From an uncultured Pelagibacteraceae bacterium (GTDB lineage: Bacteria; Pseudomonadota; Alphaproteobacteria; Pelagibacterales; Pelagibacteraceae): a stretch of 64,000 nucleotides of DNA. This document shows, in pieces, positions 15,992 through 21,318 of the stretch. The position numbers were made by a program, and so were the translations under genes. Position 1 is the first letter of the stretch, and each line of letters starts with the position of its first letter. The notes under the pieces were generated by a model, which saw only the letters and a program-made list of their open reading frames with translations, did not search any database and had not been told where the DNA came from. The stretch is from contig CACGBP010000001.1 of assembly GCA_902571375.1 (NCBI GenBank), positions 46,001-110,000 of the forward strand, written 5' to 3'.

Positions 15992-17275
15992 ATGAAGGTA
16001 TTAAATAGTAAAAGCAAAAATTTTGATAAATTATTGGATATTTTACTTTCTAAAAGAAAAAATAAACTTAAATCAAGTTCTGTCTCAGTAACAAAAATAA
16101 TTAATGATGTTAAAAAAAATGGCGATAATGCTTTGCTTAAATATGAGAAAAAATTTAATCAAAATACCGTATTATTCCCAAGTTCAGAACAAATAACTAA
16201 ATCAATAAAATCTTTAAATCCAAAAGTTAAAAAAGCCATAGATTTAGCCTATATGAGAATTCATAAGTTTCACTCATTGCAAAAATATAAAAATATTTCT
16301 TTTGTTGATAAATTTAAAAATAAGCTTGAGTACAAATATTTACCACTGGAGTCTGTAGCAATTTATGTTCCAGGCTCAACAGCTGCTTACCCATCAAGTG
16401 TTTTAATGAATGCTATTCCTGCAATAGTTGCGGGTGTTAGGAGAATAATTATGGTTAATCCAGGATATAAAGGAAAACAAAATCCAGCAGTGCTATATGC
16501 AGCGAAAAAATGTAAAATAAAAGAAATCTATTCAATTGGTGGCCCATCTGCAATTGCCGCTGTATCCTATGGAACAAAAAAAATAAAAAAAGTTGATAAA
16601 ATAGTAGGCCCTGGAAATTCTTATGTAGCTGCAGCAAAAAAAGAAGTTTTTGGTGATGTTGGAATTGAAGCTATGACTGCTGGACCATCAGAAGTAACTA
16701 TAGTTTGTGATAAATTTTCAAATCCAAATTGGATTGCGAGTGATTTAATTGGTCAAGCAGAACATGATGAACTTGCTCAATGTATTCTGATTTCTAAAAA
16801 TAATAATTTTTTAGAAAAAGTGAGGATAGAAGTTTTTGAACAATTAAGAAAAATTTCTAGAGTTTCTATTGCAAAAAAAAGCTTAATGAGCAATGGAATT
16901 TTAATGTGTATTAATTCAGAAAAAAAAATTATTGATGTTATAAACAAAATTGCTCCAGAACATTTAGAGCTAAATGTAAAAAATTATAAATCATTGGTGC
17001 CGAAAATAAAAAATGCGGGATCTATTTGTTTAGGAAAGTATGCAGTTATGGCAATGACAGATTATAATATTGGAACCAATCATGTATTGCCTACAAATGG
17101 TACAGCTAAATATTCTAGTGGGATAAGTGTTAATGAATTCTACAAAAGAATTTCATATATAAATCTAACAAAAAAGGGTATTGAAAGTCTTGGACCATCA
17201 GTTATAACTCTTGCAAATTACGAAGGATTGACTGGACATGCTCAATCTGTAAAAAAAAGAATTAGGAGAAAATAA
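15992..17275 (+). CDS. hisD: histidinol dehydrogenase
   Basis: [62 protein letters not shown]. Confidence 0.97.
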
Positions 17276-17277
17276 AT

Positions 17278-17493
17278 TTGTCAAAACAAGATTTACTCGA
17301 GTTTAAAGGTCAAGTTACTGATTTATTACCTAATGCTATGTTTAGAGTTAAATTAGAGAATGGACATGTGGTCACTGCACATACAGCGGGTAAGTTAAGA
17401 AAGAATAGAATTAGAGTTTTACAAGGTGATAATGTTACTGTCGAAATGACACCTTATGACCTAACTAAAGGCAGAATAATCTTTAGAGGTTAA
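17278..17493 (+). CDS. infA: translation initiation factor IF-1 (TTG start)
   Basis: [62 protein letters not shown]. Confidence 0.97.
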
Positions 17494-17498
17494 TTTTT

Positions 17499-17573
17499 GC
17501 CTCGGTAGCTCAGGAGTAGAGCAGAGCCCTGAAAAGGCTTGTGTCGGAGGTGCGAATCCTTCCCGAGGCACCA
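17499..17573 (+). tRNA. tRNA-Phe (GAA), CCA encoded
   Basis: GCCTCGG...GAGCC-CTGAAAA-GGCTT...CCGAGGC-ACCA. Confidence 0.95.
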
Positions 17574-17646
17574 TCAAAACATCTTGAAATAAATTAAAAA
17601 CAAATTAACTTCTACTAATAATAAACAATAAAGGATAAGAAATAAG

Positions 17647-17859
17647 ATGAGTACATTAAAAGGAACCGTTAAATGGTTTAATGGTAAGAAAGGCTTTGGA
17701 TTTATCGAAAGAGAAGACAAAGAAAAAGATGCTTTTGTGCATGCAAGTGCAGTAAAAGCTGCCGGAATGAGGTATCTTAACGAAGGAGATAAATTAGAAT
17801 TTACATTAGAAGATGGTCCTAAAGGGCCAGCGGCAGTAAATTTAAAAAAAGTAGATTAA
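17647..17859 (+). CDS. cspA: cold-shock domain protein
   Basis: GTVKWFNGKKGFGFIEREDKEKDAFVHASAV. Confidence 0.96.
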   Translation: MSTLKGTVKWFNGKKGFGFIEREDKEKDAFVHASAVKAAGMRYLNEGDKLEFTLEDGPKGPAAVNLKKVD

Positions 17860-17874
17860 TTTTAAAAAAATTTT

Positions 17875-17917
17875 AAAGGACGTTTATCTTGAAAATAGAT
17901 TTACGTCCTTTCTTTTT
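17875..17917 (+). terminator. Rho-independent terminator after cspA
   Basis: AAAGGACGT-TT-ATCT / AGAT-TT-ACGTCCTTT stem followed by CTTTTTA. Confidence 0.8.
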
Positions 17918-17956
17918 AGGGTTGAATAAATCAAATTTTTGTCTAAAAGACTGTTC

Positions 17957-18058
17957 ATGATTAAAAATGAAACCAACTTTATAAATTATTTTAGTACTCA
18001 AGAAGCAATTTTTAGAGGAAATAATAAAGGTGTGCATTTTCATTTCCATGCTGGCTAA
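17957..18058 (+). CDS. 33-aa His-rich-ended small ORF (candidate leader peptide or microprotein)
   Basis: Translation MIKNETNFINYFSTQEAIFRGNNKGVHFHFHAG*; isolated between the cspA terminator and tRNA-His/hisS. Confidence 0.45.
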   Translation: MIKNETNFINYFSTQEAIFRGNNKGVHFHFHAG

Positions 18059-18065
18059 GGCTAGC
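18050..18065 (+). promoter_or_regulatory. hairpin enclosing the stop codon of the 33-aa ORF, followed by T-rich tract (candidate attenuator)
   Basis: GCTGGC-TAAG-GCTAGC (6 bp incl. one G-U) then TTTAAATCTTTT. Confidence 0.4.
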
Positions 18066-18126
18066 TTTAAATCTTTTATATTATAATTTTAAATCCACTA
18101 AAAATAAGATAATAACAATATAAGGA

Positions 18127-18200
18127 GCCTTGGTGGTGAAATAGTATCACGTCGGTTTGTGGATCCGAAATCGTAGGGGCAGAACCTACCCAAGGTACCA
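18127..18200 (+). tRNA. tRNA-His (GTG), no encoded G-1, A73, CCA encoded
   Basis: GCCTTGG-TG-GTGA...TCAC-G-TCGGT-TTGTGGA-TCCGA...CCTAC-CCAAGGT-ACCA; base preceding position 1 is A. Confidence 0.93.
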
Positions 18201-18204
18201 AAAA

Positions 18205-19599
18205 ATGGATAAAGAAAATAAATTAATTCCTGGATTACCTTCAGGATTTGAAGATCGTTGGGATAAAAAACTTCTTCTCAAAAAAAAGCTTTTAAAAGCT
18301 ATTGAGAAAAATTTTATAAAATTTGGAGCAGTAGCTCTGGAAACCCCTTCGTTTGAAATTAGTGAAAATATAGGATCTTTTTTGGCAGAAGATGATACTA
18401 ATCCTATGTCTGATGTATTCTCATTTCAAGATGGAGAAAAAAGTATCACTCTTAGGTATGATCTTTCAAGCCCACTAGCTAGATTTGTTGCTCAAAATAA
18501 TCAAGAGCTTCCATCAATTTTTAAAAGATATGCTATTCAAAATGTTTTTAGAAATGAAAAGGCTGGTAATGGAAGGTATAGAGAATTTATGCAAGCAGAT
18601 TTTGATATAGTAGGAAATGTTAATTCTGCTCAAGCAAATGCAGAACTTTGTAATTTAATATCGAGCACTTTGTTAGATTGTGGTTTAAAAAAAGATCAAT
18701 TTACAATTAATGTAAGTAATAGAAAAATAGTTCAAGGATTAATTGATGATTTAGAAATATCAGAAGTTAAACAATTAAAAGTGATTAGGGCAATTGATAA
18801 ATTAGATAAACCAGGTTTTGGTTTAAAAGGTGTTGAAGATCTTCTTAAAAAAGAGAGAAAAGATAAAAGTGGTGCGATCACCAAGGGTGCAGATTTAAAT
18901 GATGAGCAAGCTTCTCAAATACTCAATTTTCTTAAAATTAAAGATTTAAAAGAATTAAAAGAAACTTTAAAGAATCCTTTATCTCAAGAAGGTATAAAAG
19001 AATTAGAGCAAGTATTTGAAGTATTGGGTTACAGTTCAAATTTAAATCAGGTCAAAACTAGTTTTACAATTGTTAGAGGATTGGCCTATTATTCAGATTT
19101 CATTGTTGAAACAAATCTAAATTTTAAAGTTACAAATAATAAAGGTAAAGAGGTTGATATAGGCAGTATTTGTTCTGGAGGAGCCTATGCAAAATTAATC
19201 TCGAGATTTAAAGGTGTAGATATTCCAGGTACTGGAATTAGTTTCGGAGTTGATCGTTTGTTATTTGCTTTGATGCAATTGGATCAAATTAAAGTGGATA
19301 GTCAAAAACCAGTTTTAGTTTGTGTAATGGATGAAAAATACCTTAAAAATTACTATGAAATTTTAGACCTATTAAGAAATAACAACATAAATGCTGAAAT
19401 TTTTTTAGATACAAAGAAAAATTTGGGTAAGCAACTAACTTTAGCAAATAAACGTGAGTTAGATGTAGCAATAATATGTGGTGAAAATGAATTTAAAGAA
19501 AATACGGTTACTGTAAAAAATCTTAAAGGTGTTAAGGGTGAAAACAACAAAACATTTCCAAAAGCAAATTTAATTGATGAAGTCAAAAAACTTATCTGA
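18205..19599 (+). CDS. hisS: histidyl-tRNA synthetase (start corrected from 18157)
   Basis: LRYDLSSPLARFVA, motif 2 FRNEKAGNGRYREFMQADFDIVG, GLAYYSDFIVE, GISFGVDRLL; upstream part of listed ORF lies in tRNA-His. Confidence 0.96.
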   Translation: MDKENKLIPGLPSGFEDRWDKKLLLKKKLLKAIEKNFIKFGAVALETPSFEISENIGSFLAEDDTNPMSDVFSFQDGEKSITLRYDLSSPLARFVAQNNQELPSIFKRYAIQNVFRNEKAGNGRYREFMQADFDIVGNVNSAQANAELCNLISSTLLDCGLKKDQFTINVSNRKIVQGLIDDLEISEVKQLKVIRAIDKLDKPGFGLKGVEDLLKKERKDKSGAITKGADLNDEQASQILNFLKIKDLKELKETLKNPLSQEGIKELEQVFEVLGYSSNLNQVKTSFTIVRGLAYYSDFIVETNLNFKVTNNKGKEVDIGSICSGGAYAKLISRFKGVDIPGTGISFGVDRLLFALMQLDQIKVDSQKPVLVCVMDEKYLKNYYEILDLLRNNNINAEIFLDTKKNLGKQLTLANKRELDVAIICGENEFKENTVTVKNLKGVKGENNKTFPKANLIDEVKKLI

Positions 19600-20629
19600 A
19601 AAAATCCTTAGGTCAGTAAAATCTAATGGTTTTAAATATATTGATTTACCCTCAGTAATTGAGGCAAATCATATCGTTCAAAGATCAGGAGAAAATTTTA
19701 GAAAGTTTATCTTCTCTTTCACTGATCAGAATGGAAGTGAGTTATGTCTTAGACCAGATTTAACAATTGTATCTTGTTTAAGATATCTAGAAAATGATTT
19801 AAAGGGTAAAGAAAAAATTTTCTATAGTGGTCAAGCTTATAGAAAGTCCCAAAATAAAAAAGATTCAATAATAAGAGATCAAGTTGGTTTTGAGATTATA
19901 GGATCACAAGATGAAAAAAATGATGACAAAGAAATAATAAACACTTCTCTAAAATCACTAAAAAACTTTAAATATTCATCAGGTACCCTTACTGTTGGTA
20001 ATGTAGAAATTTTTAATCTTTTAATTTCTAAATTAGATATACCAAAACGATGGAAATTAAGACTTTCAAGGCATTTTTGGAGAGAAATCTATTTTAATGA
20101 TTTGCTACAAAGACTAGAAACAAATTCTGATGTAGACCCAACAATTGTTGAAGTTGATAAAAAACGTTATCTAAAAATGTTAAAAGACGATCAATCATAT
20201 ATTATTGCAAGCAGAACAATAAAAGAAATTTTAGAACGATTTGATAAAAAGATTAACGATCCAAGAAGAGCAAGCAAGGGTAGAAATATTTCAAAAATTA
20301 TCAGAGAATTTTTAAGAATTAAGTGCCCAATAGATAAAGCTTCAAAAGAACTAAATAAGTTTTTTAAGAAATACAAAATTAATCTTATTGTTGATCAAAA
20401 ATATTTTCCAATTTCTAAAAATAAAGTTTCTAAACTTAATGTAATTTTCTCTACTGCTTTTGGAAGACAGCTAGAATATTATACGGGGATGGTTTTTAAG
20501 ATAGATATCAAATCAAAATCAAAAATTGTTAATTGCTGTAATGGGGGTCGTTATGACAAATTGATCTCTGATCTTGGTTCAAAAAAACAAACACCAGCTG
20601 TTGGGGCTGCTCTAAATCTTAATTATTAA
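19574..20629 (+). CDS. hisZ: ATP phosphoribosyltransferase regulatory subunit
   Basis: HisRS-like fold: LCLRPDLTIVSCLRYL, YSGQAYRKSQ, RQLEYYTGMVFKI, CNGGRYDKLISDLG; between hisS and hisG. Confidence 0.9.
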   Translation: MMKSKNLSEKILRSVKSNGFKYIDLPSVIEANHIVQRSGENFRKFIFSFTDQNGSELCLRPDLTIVSCLRYLENDLKGKEKIFYSGQAYRKSQNKKDSIIRDQVGFEIIGSQDEKNDDKEIINTSLKSLKNFKYSSGTLTVGNVEIFNLLISKLDIPKRWKLRLSRHFWREIYFNDLLQRLETNSDVDPTIVEVDKKRYLKMLKDDQSYIIASRTIKEILERFDKKINDPRRASKGRNISKIIREFLRIKCPIDKASKELNKFFKKYKINLIVDQKYFPISKNKVSKLNVIFSTAFGRQLEYYTGMVFKIDIKSKSKIVNCCNGGRYDKLISDLGSKKQTPAVGAALNLNY

Positions 20630-20631
20630 TT

Positions 20632-21318
20632 ATGAAAAACATAATAAATATAGGAATACCAAGTAAAGGAAGATTAAGAAAAGATGTTTTAAAAATTTTT
20701 AGTAAAAAAAAATTAAAGCTTATTTCTGAGAGAGGAGAGAGAGATTTGATAGGATCTATTCAAAATAAATCGAATATTAAAATCTTATATTTGCATGCAA
20801 GAGAAATTATTGAAAGATTAGGGGATGGTTCCTTAGATATAGGTTTCTCAGGTTTAGATTTACTAAAAGAAAGTGAAATAACTATTCAAAATAAAATTAA
20901 TGTTATTAAAAAACTTAATTTTGGAAAAGCAAAATTAGTTGTAGCGATCCCAGATCCATGGATTGATGTTCAAACGATAGCTGATCTTGAAGAAATTGCT
21001 TTTGAATTTAGAGATAAAAAGAAAAAAAGATTAAGAGTTGCAACCAAATACCCTAATTTAACTAGAGAATTTTTGTTTTCAAAAGGTGTTACTCAATTTA
21101 GATTGGTTAATAGTTTGGGAGCGACTGAAGCATATCCTTTTACTGGTTCAGCAGAAATTATTACTGATATTACATCTACAGGTGAAACTCTTAAAGCAAA
21201 TAACTTGCGTATTTTGAAAGATGGAGAGATTTTAAAGTCACAAGCCTGTATTTTTGCTTCAAAGAAAAATAGTAAGAAAAAGGGATTAAAGAACCTGATT
21301 AAACTATTTTATAAGTAA
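20632..21318 (+). CDS. hisG: ATP phosphoribosyltransferase catalytic subunit
   Basis: IGIPSKGRLRKDVL, DGSLDIGFSGLDLL, RVATKYPNLTREFL, GATEAYPFTGSAEIITDITSTGETL. Confidence 0.96.
   Translation: MKNIINIGIPSKGRLRKDVLKIFSKKKLKLISERGERDLIGSIQNKSNIKILYLHAREIIERLGDGSLDIGFSGLDLLKESEITIQNKINVIKKLNFGKAKLVVAIPDPWIDVQTIADLEEIAFEFRDKKKKRLRVATKYPNLTREFLFSKGVTQFRLVNSLGATEAYPFTGSAEIITDITSTGETLKANNLRILKDGEILKSQACIFASKKNSKKKGLKNLIKLFYK

Follow-up and report, generated by a model that had tools for sequence, protein, structure and literature searches.

The leader region and the genes behind it

The window analysed here, a 64,000-nt stretch of DNA from an uncultured Pelagibacteraceae bacterium, carries a short open reading frame (ORF) that ends in a cluster of histidine codons and a hairpin, followed on the same strand by tRNA-His, hisS, hisZ and hisG. 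Upstream of the ORF lies the cspA terminator, with a stem at ~17875-17911. The features, in window coordinates, are as follows.

17922-17948, + strand: predicted promoter, with -35 box TTGAAT (17922-17927) and -10-like box CTAAAA (17943-17948), 8 nt before the ATG; same spacing in leader classes A, B and C
17957-18058, + strand: leader ORF, translation MIKNETNFINYFSTQEAIFRGNNKGVHFHFHAG; predicted leaderless; relatives at 120/120 loci of the genus
18035-18049, + strand: putative regulatory His codons, CAT at 18035, 18041 and 18047; direct reading, with His enrichment beside the stem
18050-18065, + strand: hairpin GCTGGC-TAAG-GCTAGC, stop codon inside the loop; covariation over 29 distinct stems
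18066-18095, + strand: A/T-rich tail with an interrupted T tract, a possible pausing or termination site from tail scoring
18127-18200, + strand: tRNA-His with GTG anticodon, which opens the presumed regulated unit; Rfam RF00005, 47 bits (match at 18127-18197)
18205-19599, + strand: hisS, histidine--tRNA ligase, 464 aa without histidine; TIGR00442 above cut-off
19574-20629, + strand: hisZ, ATP phosphoribosyltransferase regulatory subunit; NF008953 above cut-off
20632-21318, + strand: hisG, ATP phosphoribosyltransferase; TIGR00070 and PF01634

Read directly from the letters, the leader ORF comprises 33 codons, from the ATG at 17957 to the TAA at 18056-18058. The hairpin arms, GCTGGC (18050-18055) and GCTAGC (18060-18065), enclose the loop TAAG (18056-18059) and are followed by TTTAAATCTTTT. 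An earlier reading made from the letters of the window (hereafter, the sequence-only reading) had described the 33-codon ORF, its three CAT codons and the stop codon in the loop correctly to the base. Its placement of the leader after the cspA terminator and about 60 nt before tRNA-His-hisS-hisZ-hisG is also borne out, the tRNA-His gene lying 61 nt past the hairpin. We rejected an in-frame extension of the ORF upstream to TTG 17939 because locus L005 has an in-frame TAG.

Most leaders of all three classes (A, B and C) have, relative to the ATG, a TTGnnn box near -35 and a -10-like box whose end is 6-8 nt away; promoter spacing in family f2 is similar. Because of these -35 and -10 positions, we predict that transcription starts at or next to the ATG, and the leader ORF is thus probably leaderless. 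The leader promoter fell below the threshold of a consensus promoter scan.

ARAGORN missed the tRNA-His gene at 18127-18200. Across related genomes (L001, L003, L152, L285), this position is taken by tRNA-His genes of clearly different sequence. In a complete relative genome (G106), the sole tRNA-His among 30 tRNA matches is the one in this operon, in a scan that gave no tRNA-Ile or tRNA-Ala and may not be exhaustive. If the leader controls this gene, the sensed tRNA would regulate its own supply in a feedback loop. Further upstream, hisD lies at 15992-17275, so that histidine genes flank infA, tRNA-Phe and cspA; the infA start codon is apparently TTG.

The HisS protein itself lacks histidine in 79 of 80 named SAR11 loci (L170-L249; the exception has 4) and in 29 of 30 other SAR11 loci (L280-L309), whereas 28 HisS proteins from other Alphaproteobacteria contain 1-10 His each. 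Given the 1.45% His averaged by the larger ORFs of the window, the probability of zero in 464 residues is P = 0.0012. Low content of the cognate amino acid in biosynthetic enzymes is the subject of a paper (PMC4209129). A His-free HisS suits production during His shortage and so indirectly favours induction on His starvation. Together with the predicted leaderless start and the sole tRNA-His found downstream in G106, this feature is new relative to the sequence-only reading.

Distribution of the leader in SAR11 and beyond

A tblastn search with the leader peptide against 60 relatives returned six convincing homologues, all situated just 5' of tRNA-His and hisS. The search had been suggested as a way of finding the 33-aa peptide at other loci, and these homologues point back to the same neighbourhood. 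With HisS as an anchor, we gathered the upstream regions of the genus; after one locus was dropped at a contig end, 120 remained, including the window (L001), and a His leader was present in 120/120 of these testable loci. As the initial detection criterion itself included a His codon near the hairpin, we ran controls under a stricter rule: an ATG ORF whose last 14 codons include at least 2 for His, one His codon being in contact with a hairpin of at least 5 bp. Under this rule the leader was recovered at all 120 loci, versus 0 on the reverse strand, 1 in the further-upstream region and ~0 in shuffled sequence. Substituting eight other two-codon amino acids for His gave 0 each, except for Phe (14).

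Under the looser rule, 78/78 named SAR11 loci whose upstream sequence was long enough have the leader, and a wider sample of loci chosen from ten genera in two families gave 30/30. The tRNA-His gene usually lies between leader and hisS in ocean SAR11. In family f2, the leader has 11 codons and stands directly ahead of hisS, with cspA and tRNA-His absent. Since f2 keeps leader and hisS without these other neighbours, the leader is tied to hisS rather than to them.

The same kind of search found no leader ahead of hisS at 28 loci from other Alphaproteobacteria. Inspection by eye showed no such leader ahead of trpE or pheS, and the idea that this genome uses amino-acid leaders generally was dropped. 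The open-access literature searched yielded no earlier report of a his leader in SAR11.

Codon usage, hairpin classes and the tail

Within the leaders, His accounts for 350 of 959 codons (36.5%) near the stem versus 7 of 2114 (0.3%) elsewhere, with exchange between CAT and CAC at several positions. Relative to the stem, the last His codon sits at -3 to +1 nt in 120/120 leaders, and the first mostly 13-21 nt upstream. Synonymous-biased substitution, which had been put forward as a check, is seen in the His segment (pN/pS 0.32-0.59) but not in the rest of the leader, where pN/pS is ~0.7-0.9 in segments without other constraint and exceeds 1 in codons 2-5 of classes B and C and codons 20-24 of class B. 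These last segments fit constraint on the RNA rather than on the peptide.

The leaders of the genus fall roughly into three hairpin classes. Class A, which includes the window, ends in HxHFHAG* with the stem GCTGGC/GCTAGC; class B ends in THRHHFHAGCxLAI* with a similar stem and the stop codon past it; and class C ends in STHRxCFHSL* with the stem ATAGCC/GGCTAT. Folded singly, the window RNA is no more stable than shuffled sequence (z = 0.06), so the case for the leader rests on comparison. Over 29 distinct stems, 97.1% of cells are paired and two-sided changes occur in 6/6 pairs; the stem sequences are related, so that cells are not independent events, yet clearly different stems stand at the same place. 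The stems scored 0.765 for covariation; shuffles gave 0.314 (0/500), and sliding gave no more than 0.084. The comparison of upstream regions proposed by the sequence-only reading thus comes out in its favour, with His codons conserved beside the hairpin at all 120 loci and a hairpin that covaries.

The tail shows less of what a classical terminator would require. U content is mostly 6/8 in class C, moderate in class B and near random in class A, the class of the window, the U-rich stretches of C and B being interrupted; d-scores are negative in all classes, and we found no canonical U-tract after the hairpin, in keeping with the earlier caveat that the T tract is interrupted. The neighbouring cspA terminators have real T runs, and their d-scores come out too low, as the scored stem reached into the T run. 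Nor did consensus folding yield a mutually exclusive antiterminator: it gave the hairpin only, plus in class C a helix between the 5' end and the tail that does not compete with the hairpin. Pairing between the 5' end of the leader, in many B members including the AUG, and the tail is possible in classes B and C. It scored -6.16 with a leader's own tail versus -4.68 when swapped in class B (0/200), and -5.88 versus -5.55 in class C (7/200; -2.77 shuffled), in a swap test that is inflated by the relatedness of the sequences. Class A gave no signal; we therefore do not claim the helix for the window, and as a general feature it was dropped.

Proposed control of the histidine genes and alternative explanations

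The observations are best explained by a real His-codon leader with a ribosome-controlled hairpin, attenuator-like, in every SAR11 genome tested. In our judgement it is probably a histidine-responsive, ribosome-mediated attenuator controlling tRNA-His-hisS-hisZ-hisG, and the data suggest that SAR11 cells set the output of these genes by the speed at which His codons are translated. As in attenuators generally, a conserved hairpin adjoins the regulatory codons, and the leader codons match the amino acid of the downstream gene, even in f2. With transcription starting at or next to the ATG, as promoter spacing predicts, the leader would be translated as a leaderless mRNA. The hairpin, which overlaps or adjoins the stop codon, follows closely on the His-codon cluster, and the speed of ribosome passage, set by charged tRNA-His, would decide whether the hairpin forms while RNA polymerase is just downstream. 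The hairpin would in turn set the share of transcripts continuing into tRNA-His, hisS, hisZ and hisG. The likely sign is that scarce charged tRNA-His would give more read-through, with ribosomes at the later His codons masking a weak putative terminator.

A ribosome footprint usually extends ~12 nt beyond the A-site codon. On this basis, a ribosome at CAT1 (18035) would reach ~18047 and leave the stem open, whereas at CAT2 or CAT3 it would mask the stem. The proposal that stalling at the CAT codons covers the hairpin therefore works for CAT2 and CAT3 but not for CAT1. In most genomes a ribosome stalled at the first His codon would stand too far from the stem to mask it, whereas one at the last His codon or the stop would cover it; in f2, where the stem begins after the stop codon, it would be masked by a ribosome at the stop and not at the His cluster. 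The central idea of the sequence-only reading, a His-codon leader controlling the hisS operon via a hairpin, is strongly supported by comparison; its stalling step is a conjecture that fits two of the three CAT codons. As judged from sequence, the lack of a canonical U-tract and of a conserved antiterminator, the distance of the first His codon and the placement of the f2 stem all count against an attenuator, and a -10-like motif before tRNA-His might bypass leader control.

The distant first His codon leads to the closest competitor, in which the same leader works with the opposite logic: a stall at the first His codon allows hairpin formation, a ribosome at the ORF end blocks it, and the hairpin would either cause termination on starvation or promote expression through pausing or protection. 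With that codon mostly 13-21 nt before the stem, a ribosome held there would not cover the stem, and the stop codon sits in the loop or just past the stem or, in f2, directly before it. However, this arrangement has no need of a last His codon that abuts the stem in all 120 leaders, and a hairpin that terminates under starvation would cut HisS at the time the cell requires it; we regard this logic as somewhat unlikely. Rho-dependent attenuation, with the leader ribosome controlling access of Rho to unstructured, G-poor RNA past the hairpin, would accommodate the weak intrinsic terminator features, as well as a nearly G-free spacer in which patches of C are conserved (classes A and C, AAATCCAC; f2, ACCCC). 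Ahead of the folded tRNA of family f1, though, the spacer is short, at ~50-60 nt; we consider this route rather improbable.

Other explanations leave the leader with little or no part in control. A conserved TA(A/G)(G/T)ATAA-like, -10-like motif lies upstream of tRNA-His, 8-13 nt away in most genomes measured, and could be a second promoter securing basal tRNA-His. That such a promoter past the hairpin mainly drives tRNA-His and hisS, so that the leader matters little, seems quite unlikely: the motif is often 9-13 nt before tRNA-His, but no -35 box stands at 15-18 nt in any leader, and a leader without effect would not persist in every genome. Least credible of all is that the peptide serves as a conserved microprotein in its own right and has nothing to do with hisS control; that it may be a conserved microprotein was a caveat of the sequence-only reading. 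The peptide can be made, class A leaders share an LRGTNRG motif, and peTrpL of S. meliloti is a leader peptide acting in trans (PMC7298713). Against this, the sequence varies, length ranges from 11 to ~35 codons, the ORF is always directed at hisS in the loci seen, and purifying selection does not run along the whole peptide, with protein constraint confined to the His-coding end.

Searches of 17400-18400 up to E = 10 matched neither the Rfam his leader (RF00514) nor the T-box, and assignment of the leader to a known RNA family or T-box was dropped; we place it neither in RF00514 nor with the classical attenuators that switch between terminator and antiterminator. Like the enterobacterial his leader (hisL, RF00514), it has a short His-codon ORF before a hairpin and his genes, with ribosome speed as sensor. 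Unlike hisL, it has one hairpin, no terminator/antiterminator alternatives and no canonical U-tract, is predicted to be leaderless and targets tRNA-His-hisS-hisZ-hisG. Histidine leader peptides also precede hisS*/hisZ in Bacillus (PMC2965389) and likewise control hisS-family genes through His codons; these are Firmicutes leaders, however, found by terminator search, and the paper notes no sequence likeness to proteobacterial leaders. The alphaproteobacterial attenuator trpL of Sinorhizobium meliloti has an RNA that starts at the leader ATG, as mapped by experiment (PMC7298713, PMC10117765). It is a precedent for the leaderless start predicted in SAR11, but has Trp codons and trpE as its target. 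In Mycobacterium smegmatis, leaderless polycysteine ORFs (Canestrari 2020, cited through PMC9031893), a second such precedent, are likewise short ORFs with codons for the sensed amino acid before their own operon; they differ in sensing cysteine and are described there as acting on translation of the downstream genes.

A more specific version of the attenuator is possible, and we advance it tentatively: a minimal, leaderless, one-hairpin attenuator without antiterminator, controlling the sole tRNA-His, its synthetase and the first His-synthesis enzyme, such that the sensed tRNA would regulate its own supply, with 5'-end/tail pairing added as a further element in some lineages. SAR11 bacteria belong to the most abundant cells of the ocean, and their streamlined genomes are considered poor in regulators. 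That all genomes checked have the leader indicates strong selection to sense the supply of histidine or tRNA-His, and the small design, in f2 11 codons and one hairpin, may show the minimum for codon-based control. The many natural leader variants are ready-made tests. Further elements stand beside some of them: in f2 (L298-L309), a conserved unpaired ACCCC(C)T-rich stretch follows the leader hairpin, and the hisS start is closely preceded by a second inverted repeat at L303 and L307-L309; at class B loci (L073-L092, L138-L166), an inverted repeat, TTGTATAGGAAT...ATTCCTATACAA, lies just 5' of the leader promoter.
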